64,000 nt of DNA, taken from positions 1 through 64,000 of the forward strand of contig PBMY01000030.1 of NCBI GenBank assembly GCA_002722795.1, read 5' to 3'. This DNA comes from Crocinitomicaceae bacterium. Lineage in GTDB: Bacteria; Bacteroidota; Bacteroidia; Flavobacteriales_D; Sanyastnellaceae. Both the position numbers and the translations under genes were made by a program. The notes beneath the pieces are model-generated. The model was given only the letters and a program-made list of their open reading frames with translations. It did no database searches and was not told the DNA's origin. How positions within the stretch are numbered: the first letter of the stretch is position 1; the number at the start of each line of letters is the position of its first letter. Below are positions 21,341-37,902 of the stretch, piece after piece.

Positions 21341-22438
21341 ATGAAAAGACTTAATAATGAATCAATAAAAGATGCGGTCAAAATATGGTATGAAGACAAA
21401 GACTCAGCATTAAAAAAATTTGGTCATATTAGTGAATGGGACGTCAAAGAAGTGACAGATATGAATGAGCTTTTTGGATGGTCATTTGAAGATTTCAATG
21501 ATGATATAAGCAAGTGGGATGTAAGTAATGTCACTGATATGAGTGACATGTTTTTAGGAGCTGAAATTTTTAATCAAGATTTAAGCGGTTGGGACGTCAG
21601 TAATGTCACAAGCATGTCTAGAATGTTTTGGAATGCCAAAGAATTTAATCAAGATATAAGCATGTGGAATGTGAGTAAGGTTACTAATATGTCTGGAACC
21701 TTTCAAGGAGCATTCAAGTTTAATCAAGCAATTGGATCTTGGGATGTAAGCAATGTTTTAAATATGAATCAAATGTTTGCATATGCACGTGAGTTTGATC
21801 AAGAATTAAGTAGGTGGGATGTAAGAAATGTCACCAACATGTATTGTTTATTTAAGTACGCTGAGGAATTCAATCAAGATATTGGAAATTGGAATATAAG
21901 TAAAGTTGAAAACATTGGTGAAATGTTTAATGGAGCTCATAAGTTTAATCAAGATATAAGCAAATGGGATGTAAGCAAGATTGATAATATGAAGAAACTA
22001 TTTCATGGAGCTTATGATTTTAATCAGGATATAAGTACTTGGAATGTAAGTAAGGTATATGATATGAGATCTATGTTTTCAGAAGCTGAGGCATTTAATC
22101 AAGATATAAGCAAATGGGATGTAAGCCAAGTAGAGTGGATGGATAACATGTTTTTTGGGGCACTTAAATTCAATCAGAATATAAGTTCTTGGGATGTCAG
22201 CAAAGTTGAGAAAGCAGAGAGGATGTTCTATTTAGCCAAATCTTTTAATCAAGACCTTAGTAATTGGAACGTGAGTTCTATGATTAATCTAAAAAAAATG
22301 TTTGGTAAAACTGAATCATTTAATCAAAATCTAAGTGCTTGGAATCTTCACAAAGAGGCTGATTTAAATGATATATTTTATAAAGCACGAGCACAGACAT
22401 TTAATCCAGCAAAGTGGGGATGGAATACCGAGGCTTAA
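21341..22438 (+). CDS. DUF285 / BspA-like repeat protein
   Basis: 365 residues made of about 12-13 tandem 25-residue repeats with the pattern FNQDISxWDVSxVxxMxxMF. This is the DUF285 (BspA-like, leucine-rich-repeat-related) family known from surface proteins of many bacteria and mycoplasmas. No signal peptide, lipobox or sorting tail is visible (MKRLNNESIKDAVKIWYEDK at the start), so either it stays in the cytoplasm or export is atypical. The 75-base periodicity makes the locus prone to copy-number change. Confidence 0.88.
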   Translation: MKRLNNESIKDAVKIWYEDKDSALKKFGHISEWDVKEVTDMNELFGWSFEDFNDDISKWDVSNVTDMSDMFLGAEIFNQDLSGWDVSNVTSMSRMFWNAKEFNQDISMWNVSKVTNMSGTFQGAFKFNQAIGSWDVSNVLNMNQMFAYAREFDQELSRWDVRNVTNMYCLFKYAEEFNQDIGNWNISKVENIGEMFNGAHKFNQDISKWDVSKIDNMKKLFHGAYDFNQDISTWNVSKVYDMRSMFSEAEAFNQDISKWDVSQVEWMDNMFFGALKFNQNISSWDVSKVEKAERMFYLAKSFNQDLSNWNVSSMINLKKMFGKTESFNQNLSAWNLHKEADLNDIFYKARAQTFNPAKWGWNTEA

Positions 22439-22620: not shown

Positions 22621-22694
22621 GTGGCTATAGCTCAGTTGGTTAGAGCACTGGTTTGTGGTTCCAGGGGTCGTCGGTTCAAATCCGATTAGCCACC
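22621..22694 (+). tRNA. tRNA-His (anticodon GTG)
   Basis: The cloverleaf can be drawn by hand. The acceptor stem GTGGCTA pairs with TAGCCAC at 22687-22693, and the G at 22620 can serve as the extra G(-1) opposite C73. The D arm is AGCTCAGTTGGTTAGAGC. The anticodon GTG is at 22655-22657 and the T arm is GTCGGTTCAAATCCGAT. The innermost anticodon-stem pair is T-T. CCA is not fully encoded. Confidence 0.95.
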
Positions 22695-22705
22695 CAAAGA
22701 AAAAG

Positions 22706-22729: not shown

Positions 22730-22845
22730 GTATCACTTAATCCTGTGAAAAACACAGTTCTTAGAAAGGGTTAATGTCGTGCAAAAAAAGCATCGTTAGA
22801 TGCTCATTTCATTGAAGGTACAAAAGCTAATACTCGGATCACAAG

Positions 22846-24393
22846 TCAATCCATTTCAATGGAATAATACCATTTTACAACAACTCCATCAACAATTAAA
22901 AATGTTAAGTTGGTTCCTAAAATTGTCATATAAGTTTTATTGACTGAATCTATAATTCTAATATGTTTATAGTTTTCTAAGATTTTACTTGAGGGATCGT
23001 TTACATAAATACCTACACTGTTTGTTAGGTTTTCACTAGTTGATGAAACCTCTTGGATACCCACACAAGAGCTTTTCCCTTTTATACGTCTTTTAATTCT
23101 ATATACGTTAACATCATTTACATTCTCTTGACATATTGATGAAACCGTAAGTTTTTTGAAATAGTTACAATCAGAATGGGCGAAATCAAAACAGTACATA
23201 TCAACACCATTAATATAGTCCTCTGTATTTTGTTTAGGTATGTCTGCCTCGAAAGAATTCTTTTTAAAATCTTGATTCACTTTACATATACCACAATTAG
23301 ATGCATGTTTTTTAAATATCGATTTAGCCTTGTTAATTCTATTATTTAATACATGATTACACCCCTCTATACATCCACTACATACATTTTCAATTTGAAT
23401 CACCTCATCAGTATTCAAAGTTTGAGATTCACCTAAAAACGACAGTGCTATTTTAGAATAATACAAGTTTTCTTTTGCAATGGAATAACTAGTATCTAAT
23501 TGAATAGCTTGTTCAAATTCATTAATTGCATCATTAAAAAGTAATTTAGCCTTGTCTTGACTCATCATAGAACCTCGAGTGGCACTTTGCGAGTCTAATC
23601 TTGTAGCTAAGTCTAATTTAAACGGAAATATTATTTTGAAATCCTGTGATTCTATATTTAGATCAAGCGCTTCATATACATAGCAAAGACCCAGGTTATT
23701 ATAAATTTCTCTGCTTGTAAATCCTTTATCTAATATATATTGAAATAATTCTTGAGCATAACTATAATGTCCTGATGACATCAAAGAATTTGCTAAGTCA
23801 AATATGGTTTTTAGTTCTTCAAACTCATTTATGTTATTTAATACAATAGCTTTTCTTTCATCTAAAGAAGGGTAGTTTTCAAGTTCATTCGGCAAAGAAT
23901 AACTAGTATAAATAGAATCTAAAAAAGCGCTAGCAACACTCAAAGCATCATATCCTGCCATATGAGCATAAAATCCTGAATAGATATCAGCTTCTGTTTC
24001 ATAAACATGTCTTTGTTCTGAAGTTTGTAATTGACTATTTATAGTTCTACTAAAATCCAAACTAGCATATTGTGACATCCATCCATGATGCCTATAATGA
24101 TGTCCTAATTCATGAGCTAATATGTAGGATAACGCATTCAGCGAATCTTTACCAAATGAAAAACAAATTTCAAGAACCCTACGCTCTAATGCAATTTGCT
24201 TTTTATTTGGATTATATCCAGCAGGATGTCTTACACTATTTTTAATAACTAACTTAGGCGCTCTAGGATTTGTATTTCCTATTGAGTACAATAAATTATT
24301 ATATAATTCATGCACTGTTTTTTCGCTCAATTCTTGAGCACTTAAAGTAAACACAAGTGAGCCAAATAAAATCAATACTATAAAGCTCCTCAT
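22846..24393 (-). CDS. secreted M48-like metallopeptidase with TPR region
   Basis: 515 residues with signal peptide (MRSFIVLILFGSLVFTLSAQ). The zinc motif HELGHH is at 94-99 (HExxH) and the third ligand is in ETEAD (132-136), the arrangement of gluzincin M48 peptidases. Residues about 180-310 are helical and TPR-like (FDLANSLMSSGHYSYAQELF, NAINEFEQAIQLDTSYSIAK). The Cys-rich region 335-405 (CSGCIEGC, CGIC) and the C-terminal part are unassigned. It is the last of three consecutive secreted protease genes on this strand, 21 bp after the papain-like gene, probably one operon. Confidence 0.85.
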   Translation of the reverse strand: MRSFIVLILFGSLVFTLSAQELSEKTVHELYNNLLYSIGNTNPRAPKLVIKNSVRHPAGYNPNKKQIALERRVLEICFSFGKDSLNALSYILAHELGHHYRHHGWMSQYASLDFSRTINSQLQTSEQRHVYETEADIYSGFYAHMAGYDALSVASAFLDSIYTSYSLPNELENYPSLDERKAIVLNNINEFEELKTIFDLANSLMSSGHYSYAQELFQYILDKGFTSREIYNNLGLCYVYEALDLNIESQDFKIIFPFKLDLATRLDSQSATRGSMMSQDKAKLLFNDAINEFEQAIQLDTSYSIAKENLYYSKIALSFLGESQTLNTDEVIQIENVCSGCIEGCNHVLNNRINKAKSIFKKHASNCGICKVNQDFKKNSFEADIPKQNTEDYINGVDMYCFDFAHSDCNYFKKLTVSSICQENVNDVNVYRIKRRIKGKSSCVGIQEVSSTSENLTNSVGIYVNDPSSKILENYKHIRIIDSVNKTYMTILGTNLTFLIVDGVVVKWYYSIEMD

Positions 24394-24414
24394 GTATGCA
24401 ATTTTTGATTCTAA

Positions 24415-25728
24415 TTACTTCAGCTTACCCCTTGAACTTATAGAATTTATAATTTGATCTGAAAGGTCATCTACAGAAGCAGGTGAAGAGTTTAGTTGTA
24501 TATCCATAATTTCAGTATGAAGAGATTGTTTCACTTCATCTAAACTCTGTATAGTTGAGGAAGAAAATCCAAAATCTTCAGTTTCTATTAATTCTCCATT
24601 TTCAAATAAAGCCCAACCAGCCCATGCATCAGGAACATCTAGATCTTCAAATATCATCCACCAACCATTAGCAAAGCCGTTTTCATATTCTCCTATAGCT
24701 GAATACCCGTCATCATCAATAATTCCACGTCCATGAAAGAGACCCTCAGAATTAACTGGCCCCTCCCAAGTTTTTGTTTCTGAATTTGCGAATTCTCCTT
24801 TGTAGAATGTACTTGATGAAACCGGATCTCTCCAATCATCCCAATTATCTTTTAATATTACATAAGCCACATCTGCTTGGTCTTTAAAATCCTTATAAGA
24901 AATCCAAAAATATCCATCATCCCCCCAATCTGAACCATAACTATTTAGCACATGGAATGCTCCACCAAATCTATTATCGTCATATCCAATTATTGTAATT
25001 GCATGTCTTCCAACAGATCCCTGAGGAGCTGAATATGTATAGTTGTTTGCACTTAAATTATTAAAATCATTACCAACGCTAATTCCTGCAATTACAGGGT
25101 TTAAACCGTTTAACACCTCTTTAATCAGTTTAATATCAACCTTAGTTTTATAGCCAGAACTTGTTTCTTTATATTCTATCAAATTAGCATAACCATCAAT
25201 TGCATAAGTACCAGTAACATCAACTAGTGATCTGAGATTAGTTTTATTTAATGTAGAACCACACTCGAGATTTGGATATAAATACAATTTTTTACAACCA
25301 TAATTTTCAATTATATCTAAAGCTTCGTATATCAGACTTCCACAATTACAACCTCCATTAGCAATACAATCTAAATCATTTGGATCTTTTAGTAAGGAAT
25401 AAATGTAAAACGGGTCAAATCTATTAACCCATCTTTCATTAAATTTTGTAACTCCGTTTACAATATTATAAAGGATTGTCATAGCTCCATTAGCAACTGC
25501 AAAACCTGTACAGCTACTTGACTCACCTTGATCTGATACTACACAATACTCAGATAAAGAAAAGTGATTCGGCAGTTTAGTTTCTGAAGAATAACCAAAA
25601 TCACCTTCATACTTCTCTTGATTTTTACTTAACTCAGCTAATGTTGCTATGTCAACTTCCGTTAAATATTGTGCATTAATCGATGAAAAAAATAAATACG
25701 TGATTATAAAAATTGCAATACGTGCCAT
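24415..25728 (-). CDS. secreted papain-family (C1) cysteine protease
   Basis: 437 residues, signal peptide MARIAIFIITYLFFSSINAQ. C1 catalytic residues are all present: Gln67 (DQG), Cys73 (SSCTGFA), His242 (GRHAITIIGYDD) and Asn262 (LNSYGSDWG). Residues about 312-385 (FHGRGIIDDDGYSAIGEYENG, FANGWW) look like MORN-type repeats. No long autoinhibitory propeptide is evident, so activation may be controlled otherwise. It is the middle gene of the three-protease run, 42 bp downstream of the caspase-like gene. Confidence 0.9.
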   Translation of the reverse strand: MARIAIFIITYLFFSSINAQYLTEVDIATLAELSKNQEKYEGDFGYSSETKLPNHFSLSEYCVVSDQGESSSCTGFAVANGAMTILYNIVNGVTKFNERWVNRFDPFYIYSLLKDPNDLDCIANGGCNCGSLIYEALDIIENYGCKKLYLYPNLECGSTLNKTNLRSLVDVTGTYAIDGYANLIEYKETSSGYKTKVDIKLIKEVLNGLNPVIAGISVGNDFNNLSANNYTYSAPQGSVGRHAITIIGYDDNRFGGAFHVLNSYGSDWGDDGYFWISYKDFKDQADVAYVILKDNWDDWRDPVSSSTFYKGEFANSETKTWEGPVNSEGLFHGRGIIDDDGYSAIGEYENGFANGWWMIFEDLDVPDAWAGWALFENGELIETEDFGFSSSTIQSLDEVKQSLHTEIMDIQLNSSPASVDDLSDQIINSISSRGKLK

Positions 25729-25770
25729 GATGATTTATTTTAATTAAAAAACAATCTAAAGTAAAGATTA

Positions 25771-28700
25771 TTAATCATCCAAATATAGGGATTCTGAATA
25801 TACACTCTCAAATTCTTTGAACTTACTCATAGGTGGATATGGGTTCTTATTATATATTCTAGATAGGGTATAGTATGATTGGTCATATGAAATGAGATTT
25901 ACAATAAAATTATATTGATTTAAATCATCAAATTTTAGCTCATGTTCAGGAATTAAAAACTCCCAATTTATATTTTCAGAGTTGTTTGGATCGTCACGTT
26001 TTACGACATAAGAATTTGAAGAAATGATATTACCCTTATCAAAGAATAAATATGAAGTTGTGTCATGTTCCAAACCATCCTTATCAATCCCAGAATACTT
26101 ATACCCACCAAAATCAATTGATATTTCAGACATTTTTTCTACTACAACAGTATCTGACCTGACATAATATCTTTTGTCAAGTTCATTTACAATTTCATTT
26201 CGATCAATATCAAACTCAATACTTGGTATTAAGGAGTTATTAAGGTTCATTTTAATACTAACATATGGCACAGTACAACTGCCATATTTTTTTTGAATAA
26301 TCTTGCATGTGTAATCCAATGTGTCGTTTAAATAACTAACAGCTTTCAAGTATTCTTTATAATATTTCATGCCCATATTGTCGTCATTAATATCTTCACA
26401 AAATTTATCATTAATCCATTTTAACATTTGGATTTCCTCGTTATCAATGAATACAGAATCGCTTGAATACTCTCTTACTAAGTCTAAATTTTTCAAGTTA
26501 TATTCAAGAGATTTTTCATGATTTCCCATCCAATAATATTGATCACTAATTGTATTAGTTAGTGAGTATATTTCTTCTGGATCAAAAACATATTTTTTAT
26601 TTTTATTTTGTTCTATAAACTCAATAATTGATATACATAAATCTATCGTGTTTTGCCTTTCTTGATTTGTTGGATTCACTATGTGCTCAGTTAAATTAAC
26701 TAGAAATCCTTTCATCTGAAGCATTAATTGTTTCTTTACATTTTGAGGATACATCCAATAACTAAAATCATCCTTTAGTAAAAAATCATCCCCATATTGA
26801 TATGCCTTTTTAGCTAATGATTTATATTTTTTATAATTATTATCTTCCCATCGATACGCATAAATTATTTCCTCATAAGACTCAAGTATTGGAAATAAAG
26901 AGACGCGTTCCTGCCATTTTTTTGCTGAATTAATAAAGTCAAAACAATATTGAATATGAGAATCTGTATCTGAATTCTTTACGAGTTTATAATTATGAAA
27001 ATTATTCTGAAAATCTTCAAGATTTCTACGTGTAATATCTGAAAAATCCTCTTTTACTATCAAACCATCAATAATAGCAAGGGCCTCATCACATAAGTCA
27101 ATAAACACTTCGTCTTGGTTCCAATTTAAAAATATTCTTGCTTTGATTATACTAAGTTTGAGACTGTGATAAGTTTTTAATTCAAGCAGTACATCTTTAT
27201 TTTTTTCTACAAATAATGAAGCGTCTTCTTTGACCTTTATATCTACCTGTGGGTATTCATCTAAATATTCACCAATTATATCATCCATATATTGATTATA
27301 TGTTTGAGATTGATAGTAGATAATATATTCATTTATGTTATTGAAATATTCTTGATCATCAACATTTAAACTCCACGATGTGTTATGTTTTTTTAAATAA
27401 TCTAAGGCATCCTTATTTACTTGTTTAGCCTCTTGGTATAACCCCATATTATTTAATAAAGAAGACTTGTCTAACATAGCTTCCATCTTGGTTTGGTTAC
27501 CGTAACCATGTGTGATTGACTCAGAATTTATCTTCTGGTCAATGATATGCAAATAGACCTCGTCTGAAATCTTACCTTTATAACTTAACCATTCAGACCA
27601 ATAAAAATAATTTTTTAATGTTGTAGAATAATCTTTCAAATCATCTTTATCAGTTGAACTATAAAGTAAATCATCTATTGATTTGTTAATTTCATTTAGA
27701 CTTGAATCAATATAATCGTAGGTATATAAAGTGTCCTCTATTTCAGAATAGTAATATTTTTGCAAAATGGGCGTAATCGCATATATCTCCCATATTGGGT
27801 CTTGATTGTTTTTAGCAATTGTAAAAGCTTTTGAATATTTTTTAAACGACATTATCTTATAATTTTCCATTTGATCATCATACTTACCAAATGGCGGATC
27901 TAGAAAAGACAAATTGTTTAACTGCCTAGCATAACTCATGAAATTATCTATACTATCTATGTAGTTTACCGAACCCATAATAGAATTATGAGACAGGATT
28001 CTTTCTCTATATTCTATTGCAGTAAAAGTGTCATCGACAAAATCTTCGCTGCTGTATGAATCAGTATTTATTGCGTTAGCATAAAGTGAATAATTATCAT
28101 GAAAGCTAGCTGCAGCACTAAGGATTCCTTCATAATCATTATAGTTCGTTAATTCTGAAAGTCTAACACCATTATTAATTATTTGAACCTGATTTTCTTT
28201 AAGAGAATTTAAATTGTTATTAGACAAATCATCTATATATCCTGATATATCATTTTCAGTCTCATAATTATCATACGCATACCTTAACATATCAGACAAA
28301 ACCATTGTATTCCATTTACATGAATACAAGTCTATGTAATCTATAAAAGCATATTTTGTTAATTCTTCCTTATCATATTTCGCTTGGAAAAAGATCTTAG
28401 AACTTTTAGACAGAGCATCTAAAGCTGTGTAAGAATTATAGTCGTTAAATAAAATCCCTTTTAAATAATTAGCGCAACCAGTTCTATAGTTGTTTTCGCC
28501 AAAATTGCTGATATTAAAATCTATTAATTTTGAAATTGCAACATCGTATTCATTGATTAACGAATCATTTAATGCCAAATCATTTTGTTCAAAATCTATA
28601 TAAGACTGAACTCTTAAAAATTTATACAACGCTTCTGAATAAATGGTTTTTTCCTCTTTACTGTATATTCCTTCTGCTTCTAAGAGCTGAGTTGCATTAA

Positions 28701-29724
28701 AAAATGCATTTGAAGATCTTAATCTAAAATCGTCATACTCTCTATAAGATTCAGCATTTTCAGTCATGCTCCAATAAATATTCCCAAGATCTAGGTAAAC
28801 ATTTAGCAATTTTCTTTTATCAATGTTATGCATTGAACTTTCAAAATAATTTTGAAGGATCTGATACTTCTTAATTGCTGACTCAACCATTCCATTTTCT
28901 ACATCATTTTTTGCTTCTTTATTGAGTTCATTAACTTCAATTTTACTGTAATCTTTTTTCAACAGCAAATACAAATCACCATCATATTCTCCGTACAGTT
29001 GAGGGCTTTGTTCTGACTCTGTTTCCATTCTAACAATCCCTCTTACTTTTTTAAATATTTCTTCGATTTTTAGGTTAGGTTCTAGCATAATATTTGCTAG
29101 TGTTTCTGTATAAATACTGTTATTTCTATCACTATTATCACTAGCTGTAAATCCAGCTCTTGTAGAATAATGTATCAACACACCGTTTGGTGGGTTTTCA
29201 GGCTCTGATAACCCATTAGAAGTAATGCTCTTTCCTTTCCAACTTTTATCAAATGGATTGTTCCTACATGCATCAAGAATGATGACATTTACTTTATCCT
29301 CAATTCTTTCTAGGGATGTTATGAAACTTGACATGTCATATCCCTTTTCCTCTAAATCATCTATACTAGGATCTTTTGGAAAATCTATCGGAATTAAATA
29401 ACTTGTTTTATACTCATCTTGAGTTCCATGACCTGAGTAATAAATAAATCCTATTTCAAAATCACTTCTAAGCAATCTCTTGTAATTAGAAAATGATTTT
29501 CTCATTTGATCATATGTCAAATCCAACGCAACTATAACTGAGTCGAATTCAAGAGTATTAAATGTTGAACCCATTAACTGAGCATCATTTTCAGGATTCT
29601 TCAAAACTGAATTTGCGTCTAAATAATTTGAGTTACCAATTACTAATGCAAGCTTTTTTTGATTTTGTGCATAAAATGAAAGAGAAAAACAAAGTGTGAT
29701 TAAAATGATTAGAAGTTGTCTCAT
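25771..29724 (-). CDS. secreted caspase-like (C14) protease with large TPR-type C-terminus
   Basis: 1317 residues with signal peptide (MRQLLIILITLCFSLSFYAQ). The caspase fold occupies about residues 24-255: LALVIGNSNY, then FIYYSGHGTQDE with catalytic His99, then VIILDACRNNPF with catalytic Cys153. The remaining ~1000 residues are mainly helical with TPR-like stretches, which probably bind a partner. The C-terminal ~200 residues look beta-rich. Bacterial caspase-like proteins usually cleave after basic residues, but specificity here is unknown. It is first of the run caspase, papain-like, M48-like. Confidence 0.87.
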   Translation of the reverse strand: MRQLLIILITLCFSLSFYAQNQKKLALVIGNSNYLDANSVLKNPENDAQLMGSTFNTLEFDSVIVALDLTYDQMRKSFSNYKRLLRSDFEIGFIYYSGHGTQDEYKTSYLIPIDFPKDPSIDDLEEKGYDMSSFITSLERIEDKVNVIILDACRNNPFDKSWKGKSITSNGLSEPENPPNGVLIHYSTRAGFTASDNSDRNNSIYTETLANIMLEPNLKIEEIFKKVRGIVRMETESEQSPQLYGEYDGDLYLLLKKDYSKIEVNELNKEAKNDVENGMVESAIKKYQILQNYFESSMHNIDKRKLLNVYLDLGNIYWSMTENAESYREYDDFRLRSSNAFFNATQLLEAEGIYSKEEKTIYSEALYKFLRVQSYIDFEQNDLALNDSLINEYDVAISKLIDFNISNFGENNYRTGCANYLKGILFNDYNSYTALDALSKSSKIFFQAKYDKEELTKYAFIDYIDLYSCKWNTMVLSDMLRYAYDNYETENDISGYIDDLSNNNLNSLKENQVQIINNGVRLSELTNYNDYEGILSAAASFHDNYSLYANAINTDSYSSEDFVDDTFTAIEYRERILSHNSIMGSVNYIDSIDNFMSYARQLNNLSFLDPPFGKYDDQMENYKIMSFKKYSKAFTIAKNNQDPIWEIYAITPILQKYYYSEIEDTLYTYDYIDSSLNEINKSIDDLLYSSTDKDDLKDYSTTLKNYFYWSEWLSYKGKISDEVYLHIIDQKINSESITHGYGNQTKMEAMLDKSSLLNNMGLYQEAKQVNKDALDYLKKHNTSWSLNVDDQEYFNNINEYIIYYQSQTYNQYMDDIIGEYLDEYPQVDIKVKEDASLFVEKNKDVLLELKTYHSLKLSIIKARIFLNWNQDEVFIDLCDEALAIIDGLIVKEDFSDITRRNLEDFQNNFHNYKLVKNSDTDSHIQYCFDFINSAKKWQERVSLFPILESYEEIIYAYRWEDNNYKKYKSLAKKAYQYGDDFLLKDDFSYWMYPQNVKKQLMLQMKGFLVNLTEHIVNPTNQERQNTIDLCISIIEFIEQNKNKKYVFDPEEIYSLTNTISDQYYWMGNHEKSLEYNLKNLDLVREYSSDSVFIDNEEIQMLKWINDKFCEDINDDNMGMKYYKEYLKAVSYLNDTLDYTCKIIQKKYGSCTVPYVSIKMNLNNSLIPSIEFDIDRNEIVNELDKRYYVRSDTVVVEKMSEISIDFGGYKYSGIDKDGLEHDTTSYLFFDKGNIISSNSYVVKRDDPNNSENINWEFLIPEHELKFDDLNQYNFIVNLISYDQSYYTLSRIYNKNPYPPMSKFKEFESVYSESLYLDD

Positions 29725-30056: not shown

Positions 30057-30425
30057 TTAATGATCGTCTAATAAATCCCTCTTTCTGATATCGTCTGAAA
30101 TATCTATAATTATATCCCCCCAGTTGTGTTGAGTATATAAAACATTTTCTTTTGAATTAATGGTATTGTGGATGTGTGTTCCATCTTCAAAAGTTGTCAC
30201 GATTTCACGGAATCTTTTTTTTTCATCAGAGAAATGTAAACACATGACTTCACCGTCCTGAATTTTTAACTGAAGGCTACCTTCATGATCGTATCTGTAA
30301 AGAACTTTACTAGTTTCATAATCAAAGTGAAGCACTTCATCTAAACATATCATTACACAAAGAGTGTCTTGAGCACTTATTGTAGTGCATACGAGCATTA
30401 ACAATGCTGGAAATAAATTTTTCAT
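30057..30425 (-). CDS. small secreted protein, unknown
   Basis: 122 residues with a clear signal peptide (MKNLFPALLMLVCTTISAQ). The mature part is acidic and contains repeated strand-like segments (VLYRYDHEGSLQLKIQDGEV, GDIIIDISDDIRKRD). No family recognised. It might belong to the transcript of the protease genes downstream, but a 332-bp gap separates them. A TAGTTTTG box on the minus strand at 30505-30512 is a possible promoter. Confidence 0.65.
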   Translation of the reverse strand: MKNLFPALLMLVCTTISAQDTLCVMICLDEVLHFDYETSKVLYRYDHEGSLQLKIQDGEVMCLHFSDEKKRFREIVTTFEDGTHIHNTINSKENVLYTQHNWGDIIIDISDDIRKRDLLDDH

Positions 30426-30610: not shown

Positions 30611-32791
30611 ATGCTCAAGAAAATTGCATCCTTTTCGTTCTTAACCCTTTGTATATACTCTTTTTATGCCCAGACCCCTTGCATCAATGGTATGTCAGGT
30701 GGCTATCCATGTGAAAACGTAGAACTGCTTTCATACATGAGTGGGGGATCAATTGGTGGGGGTGATATGAATGACATTTGGGGATGGATTGACCCTACAG
30801 ATGGTACAGAATATGTAATTATTGGCCGAACCAATGGGACTGCATTTATCGATATCTCAGACCCACTAAATCCAATTTACATAGCAAATCTTCCTACTGC
30901 CACATCAAGCTCAATGTGGAGAGATATTAAAGTTCATAATAACCACGCATTTATTGTTTCTGAAGCTAGCGGACACGGAATGCAAGTAGTCGATTTGACT
31001 TCACTTGGCAGTATCACTTCGCCACCTCAAACTATTGAAGCTGATGCAATCTACTCAGGATGGGGAAACGCTCATAACATCGTCATAAATGAAAGCACAG
31101 CAAAAGCTTATGGAGTAGGCACAAGCACATTTGATGGAGGATTGCACATTTTAGACATAAGCAACCCAACTAATCCAACACTGATTGGAGAGTTCTCTAA
31201 TGATGGATACACTCACGATGCCCAAGTGGTATCATACATTGGACCTGATACTAACTATCAAGGAAAGGAAATTGCTTTTTGTTGCAACGAAAACACAGTG
31301 ACTGTGGTTGATGTTACTGATCCTAGCGACGCCGTTTTGATTAGTGCAACAGGATACATTGGAGTTAATTACACCCACCAAGGTTGGCTTACTGAAGACC
31401 AAACCTACTTCATCAGTAACGACGAACTTGACGAACAGGAATTAGGTGTTAATACAACCTCATTTATTTGGGATATGTCTGACTTAAGCTCACCTCAAAT
31501 CATTGGAACGTTTGTATCAGAAACACCTGCCATTGATCACAATCTATATATTAATGACGGTTTAGTTTATCAGTCAAACTATAGAGCAGGTTTGAGGATA
31601 TTAGATACTGATAACATTGCAAATGGAGAATTGGAAGAAGTTGGTTTTTTTGATGTTTACCCTCAAAGTGACTCGCCTCAATTCAGTGGTTCATGGTCAA
31701 ACTATCCTTATTTCCCATCCGGAGTAATAGCAGTTTCTCATATCGAAGAAGGATTGTTTCTCTTACGACTTTCCGGAGAATTAAGCAACCTAGGCTGCAT
31801 GGATCCTGCAGCTTGTAACTATGACCCTTCGGCACTTGAAGACGACGGTTCTTGTGTTGGTTTTAACGAATGTGGCGGATGCGAGGGAGACGAGTTATTT
31901 TGTGTTGGTTGTACTAATGAAAATGCATGCAACTACAATACAGAATCTACAATTGATGATGGCAGTTGCTACGAAATAGACCCTCCAATTTCTCAATCCA
32001 TCACTCAAGAAGGTGAGGCTGTAATCTTCACTAATGAACCTGCATCGTTTTGGTTTGAAACAGAAACATCACCTGAAGAATTATATATAGGCCAAACATA
32101 CACAATGCCTTTTGAAGAGTTTTCTCAGTCAATCTGGGTTGCTAATTCAAATGGTGAATACAATGTGATTGGCGGTAAGGAAGAACCTGATTTCAACAAT
32201 GGACAATATCATGACAATAATGCCTATTGGCTTGTTTTTGATGTCTATGAAGATGTGCTTTTCGAATCAGTCGACGTCTATTCTCAACAAGGAGGAGCTC
32301 AGGTAATCGAAATATTAAATTCAGAAGGAGAACTAGTGGAAGAGTTTACCCAATTCTTAAGTGAAGGATTAAACGTGTTCAATATTGACCATATACTCCC
32401 TGCTGGAGACGGATACGAAATTAGATCTGGAAACAACGAGCCTTTACTTTGGAGAGAAGATGACGGCGCAGATGTAAACTTTCCATACGAAATAGGATCA
32501 TTAGCTAGTATTGTAAGCACAACCATCTCAAGCGAAAACCAGTATAACTACTATTATTTCTACTACAATTGGAGGATGTCATCAGCAAATCCATGTTTAT
32601 CATCAAGAACAGAATTTGAGGTGATTGTTCATAGTCTTGATGAAATCGTAGACAATCAAAATGCAACTCGAAAAGCGATCAAGTTCTTTGATGTAACCGG
32701 AAAAGAAATTTCAACAGCTAGAAATCAAATTGTATTCATTTTATACAATGATGGAACTGTTGAGAAAAAGTTCGTTTCAGAACCTTTTTAG
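30611..32791 (+). CDS. choice-of-anchor B (LVIVD-type) surface protein with Cys-rich repeats and shared tail
   Basis: About 726 residues from the ATG at 30611, which begins a proper signal peptide (MLKKIASFSFLTLCIYSFYA); the TTG at 30563 is less likely. Residues about 40-390 are LVIVD-type propeller repeats (FIDISDPLNPIYIANL, VVDLTS, LHILDISNPTNPTLIGEF, VDVTDPSDAVLI). Then come two Cys-rich units (GCMDPAACNYDP ... DDGSC, and GCTNENACNYN), the same type as in the giant protein at 1-3906. The C-terminus (VTGKEISTARNQIVF, YNDGTVEKKFVSEPF) is a version of the tail of the 10-17 kb array. Surface-anchored; function unknown. Confidence 0.87.
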   Translation: MLKKIASFSFLTLCIYSFYAQTPCINGMSGGYPCENVELLSYMSGGSIGGGDMNDIWGWIDPTDGTEYVIIGRTNGTAFIDISDPLNPIYIANLPTATSSSMWRDIKVHNNHAFIVSEASGHGMQVVDLTSLGSITSPPQTIEADAIYSGWGNAHNIVINESTAKAYGVGTSTFDGGLHILDISNPTNPTLIGEFSNDGYTHDAQVVSYIGPDTNYQGKEIAFCCNENTVTVVDVTDPSDAVLISATGYIGVNYTHQGWLTEDQTYFISNDELDEQELGVNTTSFIWDMSDLSSPQIIGTFVSETPAIDHNLYINDGLVYQSNYRAGLRILDTDNIANGELEEVGFFDVYPQSDSPQFSGSWSNYPYFPSGVIAVSHIEEGLFLLRLSGELSNLGCMDPAACNYDPSALEDDGSCVGFNECGGCEGDELFCVGCTNENACNYNTESTIDDGSCYEIDPPISQSITQEGEAVIFTNEPASFWFETETSPEELYIGQTYTMPFEEFSQSIWVANSNGEYNVIGGKEEPDFNNGQYHDNNAYWLVFDVYEDVLFESVDVYSQQGGAQVIEILNSEGELVEEFTQFLSEGLNVFNIDHILPAGDGYEIRSGNNEPLLWREDDGADVNFPYEIGSLASIVSTTISSENQYNYYYFYYNWRMSSANPCLSSRTEFEVIVHSLDEIVDNQNATRKAIKFFDVTGKEISTARNQIVFILYNDGTVEKKFVSEPF

Positions 32792-33126
32792 TACATCAAG
32801 TGAATCTTGGACTTGTCGTTCCATTCGGCCTGCCATTCAGAACTAACGAAATAGATTGTCAAATCAGCTTGCCATTCTGAGTCTACGAAATACACTTTCT
32901 TATCTGCCTGCCATTCTGAGTCTACAAAGAACCACTTTCCTTCATTTCCTTTGGCCTGCCAACTTGATCCGACTTTGTAAACTGACAAGTCAGCTTGCCA
33001 TTCAGAGCTAACAACGTAGACTTTGATATCTGCCTGCCATTCTGAGTCAACAGAATAAATCAGCTGTGCTGACATAGAAACAATGTAAATAAAAAATGCA
33101 ATTAACAATGTGAGTTTTTTCTCCAT
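32788..33126 (-). CDS. secreted SEWQAD-repeat protein
   Basis: 112 residues: a signal peptide (about 20 residues, ending SMSAQ) and six short repeats built on VDSEWQAD or VSSEWQAD, each followed by a strand such as KVYVV. This resembles the DUF6150-type repeat proteins of Bacteroidota, as I remember them; function unknown. The repeats are also similar in DNA. Its stop overlaps the stop of the convergent gene by 4 bases. Confidence 0.78.
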   Translation of the reverse strand: MEKKLTLLIAFFIYIVSMSAQLIYSVDSEWQADIKVYVVSSEWQADLSVYKVGSSWQAKGNEGKWFFVDSEWQADKKVYFVDSEWQADLTIYFVSSEWQAEWNDKSKIHLMY

Positions 33127-36726: not shown

Positions 36727-37902
36727 ATGGAATCACGCGACAGTTTGAGGGTTTTGCATATTGCAAGCTGGTATCCTAGCAAGGTGCATAAGAGCTTAGG
36801 GAACTTCATACAAAGACATATTTCAGCTATTGCAACAAAGCATGTTTGTGAGCTTTGGTATTCTTCGCCAATACATGCAAATGACCCCCTTATGGGTTCA
36901 ATAAGCATAGATGATTCAAATGGATTTGTTGAGCGTATTGTTTACCCTAAAGCCACTCGACCTGGCGTTAGAGCAGTAACTAGGTCGCTTTTGAATTTTG
37001 AACTAGGCGAAAACATCGCTATGCCAGACATCATACATCTCCATGTTACCTTTCCAGCAGGAAGAGCTGCAAGAATTTTGTCTGAAAAGTGGGATATTCC
37101 ATTAGTGATAACTGAGCATTGGACCGCTTATCACGATTCTCAACATATCCCTCTTTGGAGAAGGATAGCTATGAGAAGAACCGCTTCTGCTACAAGTGTT
37201 TTCTGCCCTGTCACTCACCAACTAGGTCAAACCATGCGCCAATTTAAAATGGTTAACAGGAATGGAACAGAAACTTATAGGGTAATACCCAACGTAGTTG
37301 ATACAGAAAAATTCAAACTATGTGATATCCCCAAGTCTAAATCTGATGGTTTAAAAATTCTCCATGTAAGTTCCCTTGAAGAAGCGCAAAAAAACATCAC
37401 AGGTATTCTCAACACCATTTCATATATCAGAACTACACATCCAGATTTCAAGTTCACCCTTAAAATTGTAGGTGGTTCAGAAATTGAAAGACTCAATGAA
37501 GTTAGGAGTTATGCAACTATCATGAAATTAGTTGAGCCCTATGTGAAATTTACTGGAGCATTAAGTGGAGAAACTGTAGCTGAGGAAATGAGAAATAGCG
37601 ATGCAGTACTTCTGTTTAGTAGAAAAGAGAATTTTCCGTGTGTAATAGCTGAGGCATGGTCGTGCGGTAAGCCTGTAATTACAACTGATGTTGGGGGAAT
37701 TGCAGAACACATGGCACCTGAAAGGGGAAAGATGGTAAAATCCGGTGATGAACAAGCTTTAGCAAAAGCAATATTGGCATTAGACAAGCCTTGGGATGCT
37801 GAGAAAATTCGGAGCTATGCTGTAGAGAATTTCAGTATTGAAGCTGTTGCAGAAGCTTACTCTGAAGTTTACTCAAAGGCACTTTCTATTTCAAGCTCTT
37901 GA
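36727..37902 (+). CDS. GT4-family glycosyltransferase
   Basis: 391 residues. N-terminal HIASWYPSKVHKSLGNFIQRH, then EHWTAYHDS. The C-terminal domain has the GT4 signature VLLFSRKENFPCVIAEAWSCGKPVITTDVGGIAEHM with the E-x7-E nucleotide-sugar site. It is a retaining transferase, probably for an exopolysaccharide or O-antigen. It is not BshA by its N-terminal sequence. It ends 17 bp inside the convergent flippase gene. Confidence 0.92.
   Translation: MESRDSLRVLHIASWYPSKVHKSLGNFIQRHISAIATKHVCELWYSSPIHANDPLMGSISIDDSNGFVERIVYPKATRPGVRAVTRSLLNFELGENIAMPDIIHLHVTFPAGRAARILSEKWDIPLVITEHWTAYHDSQHIPLWRRIAMRRTASATSVFCPVTHQLGQTMRQFKMVNRNGTETYRVIPNVVDTEKFKLCDIPKSKSDGLKILHVSSLEEAQKNITGILNTISYIRTTHPDFKFTLKIVGGSEIERLNEVRSYATIMKLVEPYVKFTGALSGETVAEEMRNSDAVLLFSRKENFPCVIAEAWSCGKPVITTDVGGIAEHMAPERGKMVKSGDEQALAKAILALDKPWDAEKIRSYAVENFSIEAVAEAYSEVYSKALSISSS

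Follow-up and report, generated by a model that had tools for sequence, protein, structure and literature searches.

A recurrent set of caspase-like, papain-like and M48 proteases with putative export signals in Bacteroidota

Three secreted-type protease genes of different classes lie side by side on the minus strand (positions 22846–29724) of the window, the 64,000-nt stretch of Crocinitomicaceae bacterium DNA analysed here. This raises the question of whether a caspase-like (C14), a papain-like (C1) and an M48-like protease belong together as one unit and, if so, what they could do. We addressed it by examining the three proteins, the conservation of their neighbourhood and the explanations compatible with both.

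Three adjacent protease genes and their products

Read in the direction of transcription, the C14 gene (25771–29724, 1317 aa) is followed after 42 bp by the C1 gene (24415–25728, 437 aa) and after another 21 bp by the M48 gene (22846–24393, 515 aa). The initial annotation, which had reported these genes as adjacent on one strand with these gaps, was exact in coordinates, strand and lengths. Just 3′ of the M48 stop codon lies a terminator-like hairpin with a T-run on the same strand (22788–22805), which likely marks the end of the transcription unit; it is a consensus match only, as are all five such sites found in the region against 2.3 expected. The operon is flanked on one side by a gene for a DUF285 repeat protein (PF03382, 1.2e-131; 21341–22438) and on the other by a gene for a DUF6150 protein (1.1e-29; 32788–33126).

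Read by eye, the N-termini of all three proteases begin with K/R residues, followed by a hydrophobic stretch and an AQ site, and look like Sec signal peptides. Because none of the three had a Pfam match to Por_Secre_tail, the C-terminal tail of T9SS cargo, the periplasm is their likely location. The initial placement of the proteins outside the inner membrane is thus upheld, at the level of sequence.

The C14 protein matches Pfam PF00656 with 3.2e-35 (122 bits; cut-off 21.4). Its putative signal peptide is followed by a caspase domain (residues 23–245) and a long, helical, repeat-like tail. The His99/Cys153 dyad is invariant among the aligned relatives, as befits a p20-type domain, and the nearest solved relative is the paracaspase MALT1 (profile search, 7e-19). 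Domain and dyad together predict a paracaspase-like peptidase. It does not belong to the EACC1-type caspase subfamily, scoring 31.5 bits against a cut-off of 140 for NF047832. The homologue at locus L049 is of almost the same length (1321 aa), with 59% identity in the N-terminal domain.

The C1 protein (PF00112, 5.3e-11, over the cut-off) combines a putative signal peptide, a catalytic domain at about residues 50–291 and a MORN-type C-terminal region, which matches the solved MORN1 structure (profile, 9e-11). Gln67, Cys73, His242 and Asn262, the papain catalytic set, are invariant among its relatives. The closest solved structure to the catalytic domain is 3ois (profile match, 1.4e-21), which we take to be a xylellain-like cysteine protease. 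An inhibitory propeptide of the I29 type is typical of C1A proteases, although not universal. Here, Pfam detected no I29-type propeptide, and only ~30 residues separate the putative signal peptide from the domain start near residue 50. The C1 protein thus has no classical propeptide that the caspase could remove, which leaves the sequential activation cascade suggested earlier unsupported in its propeptide-removal form. The predicted C1 model, with a pLDDT of 53, is too poor for judging latency.

The M48 protein matches PF01435 (1.9e-4; 21.7 bits, cut-off 20.3) and carries HELGH (94–98), ETEAD (132–136), the motif Y174-P175-x4-R180, a TPR region (about 195–320) and a C-terminal beta domain. 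H94, E95, H98, E132 and D136 are invariant among relatives; the first four make up the HExxH motif with its downstream Glu zinc ligand. The catalytic residues initially described as intact are thus present and conserved in all three proteins. As for the two TPR-like regions claimed at the same time, the one in M48 is well supported, by profile matches to solved TPR structures (200–335) and by helices in the AF2 model (pLDDT 77), whereas the one in the C14 tail is weak (TPR_12, E 0.009, under the cut-off). The best fold match of the M48 model is E. coli BepA (6ait), at a low global TM-score of about 0.2, and as in BepA the TPR region follows the protease domain, in a protein that is predicted to be periplasmic.

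In M48 enzymes, the His of an HPx4R motif (H246 or His246 in BepA) is the fourth zinc ligand and is thought to restrain the enzyme (PMC7950410). The window M48 does not have this zinc-binding His in its plug: the motif reads YPx4R, as in nearly all members of its family, and the Tyr is invariant in 24 aligned sequences. The His is retained in the outgroup M48 proteins of loci L044, L046, L047 and L048 and in all 22 canonical Bacteroidia M48 proteins with a recognisable plug motif. The exchange of Tyr for His in this family is a new observation. In astacins, a Tyr binds zinc and swings away. One possibility, by analogy, is that the plug Tyr does the same; another is that the exchange means the loss of the M48 brake. 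The Tyr plug makes a clear, testable prediction on the regulation of this M48 branch.

Recurrence of the protease set across Bacteroidota

The proposal that the three classes form one unit would be at odds with neighbours that are nowhere conserved together. A neighbourhood search anchored on M48 instead found them recurring above chance. Scanning 84,980 genomes with the M48 proteins of the window and of genome G235 yielded 27 relatives and one spurious match; with five further loci from a phylum sample, 32 loci in other genomes were available. Part of the C14, CHAT, C1 and sigma factor assignments at these loci came from profiles iterated from seeds. Within the flanks examined, a C14 or CHAT gene lies near M48 in 20 of the 32 loci, a C1 gene in 6 and at least one of them in 22, and these counts are lower bounds because flanks are often cut short by contig ends. 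Compared with genome-wide counts of the respective class, linkage to C14 was seen at 14 of 23 loci versus 0.47 expected (tail 2.5e-19), or 11 of 18 versus 0.37 with near relatives collapsed, and linkage to C1 at 6 of 19 versus 0.20 (1e-8), the tails assuming independence and random placement and being orders of magnitude only. A first control set (L086–L102) consisted mostly of other zinc peptidases or TPR proteins, and a control with canonical M48 genes was added: at 40 such loci in Bacteroidia, neither C14, CHAT, C1 nor CHASE2 genes were found within about 10 kb (0/40).

All three classes occur together at three independent loci, L049, L050 and L051, in varying order and orientation. In L049 (Flavobacteriales SAT135), C14 is on one strand and M48 and C1 are on the other; L050 and L051 are from single-cell Bacteroidetes genomes. 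M48 and C1 are joined in L070 by a CHAT protease in place of C14, a replacement also found in L068, and form a pair in L060 and L063. Beside this M48, CHAT and C14 appear interchangeable, the latter occurring singly or as a fusion with other repeats. MORN repeats are located on C1 and, in L051, also on C14 as a fusion.

Further genes were found around these loci. ECF-sigma-like genes lie near M48 in L045, L052, L056, L068 and L072, and CHASE2 proteins are encoded in M48 loci of Lewinellaceae and Saprospiraceae; the window operon has neither as a neighbour. In L049, the closest relative, a trypsin-PDZ gene of the DegP type (L049:4782-5903) follows directly 3′ of C14 on the same strand and represents a fourth protease class; in L045, M48 has a trypsin-like gene in its vicinity. 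DNA methyltransferase genes were seen near the L049 set, a STAND-type ATPase gene (NPHP3_N/AAA_16; L060:4365-5858) and an FRG-domain gene (L063:5876-6703) near the two M48 and C1 pairs.

In the M48 tree, the window protein pairs with that of L049 (support 100/99) within a group of eight (80/95) that also includes L050, L051, L052, L060, L063 and L070. C1 is present in seven of these eight and a clan-CD protease in six, and the genes are arranged in at least four different ways. Distances among M48 and C1 proteins correlate (Mantel r 0.62, exact p 0.008), which fits co-inherited genes, although shared host ancestry would give the same. The strongest sign of joint function is that linkage was kept through rearrangement. 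The set is, however, not strictly obligate, as C14 and C1 also pair without this M48 family (L103–L107) and Aureispira-type M48 relatives stand alone. Among the former, L103 (G460:C19:1-19990) has two C14, one CHAT, one CHASE2 and three C1 genes, and in L104–L107, from Aureispira-type and Saprospiraceae genomes, C14 adjoins C1.

In the source organism, the operon lies in a variable hotspot bordered by a tRNA-His gene (22621–22695, plus strand). The distance from this gene to a glycosyltransferase gene (36727–37902 in the window, and its orthologues) is 14 kb in the window, ~50 bases or less in the congeners G003, G005, G006 and G007, about 1 kb in G001, 6.3 kb in G008 and about 12 kb in G012. 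In congeners, the hotspot is either short or occupied by other genes. None of the three proteases was found in any of the 13 congeners searched, only some of which are more than 90% complete. The view of the three classes as one unit is supported in two ways: they recur, rearranged, in Flavobacteriia and related single-cell genomes, and they are jointly absent in 13/13 congeners.

The hotspot stretch is AT-rich. Around the tRNA-His gene, 27 kb of AT-rich sequence (8991–36727) encode many putative secreted proteins, where several congeners have a gap of only a few kb. We considered an island formed by site-specific integration, and found neither a directly repeated copy of the tRNA 3′ end nor an integrase-like ORF; we therefore use the term variable hotspot only. 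Carriage by phages or plasmids was considered as well: no viral contig with the M48 family was found, one Aureispira plasmid bears a distant M48 (27%) and one phage-labelled contig a partial C1.

A small secreted protein of 122 aa encoded at 30057 had initially been linked to the proteases. It is separated from the operon by 332 bp, no relative of it lies beside the six M48-anchored loci compared and a homologue with 51% identity occurs in the hotspot of G008, where the proteases are absent. We therefore do not count it as a member of the set.

Possible roles in the cell envelope

The protease module as such is well supported. Being kept together in distant relatives despite reordering, it points to a shared, so far undescribed cell-envelope job for the three classes. 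From this we infer joint action, and tentatively favour, as a reading that may well prove wrong, a module of periplasmic proteases that is accessory, varies in its presence and serves a conditional envelope response. Its scaffold and initiator, making limited cuts, would be a large clan-CD protease with a repeat tail, which is of the paracaspase type here and CHAT in some relatives. The C1-MORN and the Tyr-plug M48-TPR proteins would be the partners of this protease, with repeats for substrate binding and a broader cleavage. Envelope signals would switch the module on, and it might, for example, remove or inactivate damaged or foreign periplasmic proteins under stress or attack. The order of events, trigger and substrate are inferred; the envelope-sensing genes beside the set in relatives, for CHASE2 proteins and ECF sigma factors, make a conditional response the likeliest role. 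A narrower version, which we consider unlikely in this specific form, is a signal-gated cascade outside the inner membrane, started by the repeat-scaffolded paracaspase or CHAT protease and continued by the papain-like protease and a Tyr-switch M48; in the envelope, it would be the equivalent of the caspase systems of the cytosol.

A serious rival, if equally unlikely in our view, is envelope quality control that proceeds with no signalling cascade, in which the M48-TPR protein would act on outer-membrane proteins as BepA does and the two cysteine proteases would clear the released material. The fold match of the predicted model, the order of M48 and TPR domains and the DegP-type and trypsin-like genes in L049 and L045 agree with this idea. 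Yet the global similarity to BepA is low, BepA's regulatory His is a Tyr here and proteases for quality control usually belong to the core genome, while 13 congeners lack this set.

Slightly more doubtful, yet likewise a serious rival, is a periplasmic module for defence or antagonism, directed against phage or toxins of competitors. The variable presence in a tRNA hotspot would suit it, as would the immune functions of caspase and CHAT proteases in other systems and the nearby methyltransferase, FRG and STAND-type ATPase genes, but these genes are inconsistent across loci, the known caspase and CHAT systems are cytosolic and the M48 was on no viral contig found. A known defence system at the operon was rejected, as PADLOC returned only weak caspase/capP matches. 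Least probable are three independent nutritional or housekeeping exoproteases sharing an operon by chance: Bacteroidota do secrete many proteases and operon-mates may be merely co-regulated, but linkage far exceeds chance through rearranged orders in unrelated genomes, canonical M48 genes show none and, with no T9SS tail found, retention in the periplasm is likely.

The accessory envelope module that we favour would matter because research on bacterial caspase and CHAT proteases has mostly treated them as enzymes of immunity or cell death in the cytosol. An exported-looking set that recurs and is tied to papain-like and M48 proteases would place such regulation in the envelope. Cultured hosts for testing it are Flavobacterium aciduliphilum (DSM 25663), which carries M48 and C14 together with an ECF sigma gene, and Neolewinella, with M48, C14 and CHASE2 in N. 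aquimaris DSM 105137.

Comparison with known systems

We found no account of the C14/C1/M48 trio in the open-access literature, subscription papers lying outside our search. That metacaspase operons contain TPR or WD40 companions and proteolysis genes is known in general: in a 2012 survey of prokaryotic caspase homologues, 23 operons with a metacaspase also contained proteolysis genes and myxobacteria had operons with sigma factors, and its operon section makes no mention of the set of C14, C1 and Tyr-plug M48 (PMC3501461). Caspase-centred conflict systems (EACC1/EACC2), in which caspases occur with CHASE2 and ECF sigma genes, are similar in the caspase, the variable sensor domains and sometimes these neighbours, but their caspase module is cytosolic, in contrast to the export-like N-terminus of the window C14 (PMC8195603).

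TPR-CHAT proteases such as Csx29 of the CRISPR-Craspase share the combination of a clan-CD protease with a TPR scaffold, and at L068 and L070 the C14 gene is replaced by CHAT; Csx29, however, is cytosolic and RNA-guided, and the window set has no CRISPR context. From the presumably xylellain-like protease 3ois, the nearest solved C1 relative, the window C1 differs in an added MORN-type C-terminal region and in its place in a multi-protease operon. MALT1-type paracaspases and prokaryotic metacaspases (orthocaspases) resemble the window C14 in their caspase p20-like domain with a His-Cys dyad, whereas the latter is putatively exported, has a long tail within its 1317 aa and belongs to a recurrent set with C1 and a Tyr-plug M48. 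BepA, finally, shares with the window M48 a periplasmic-type M48 domain with HExxH and a downstream Glu ligand followed by TPRs, and is its best fold match; it differs in the plug, HPx4R in BepA versus YPx4R here (PMC7950410), and the window M48 has an extra C-terminal beta domain and is linked to clan-CD and C1 proteases.
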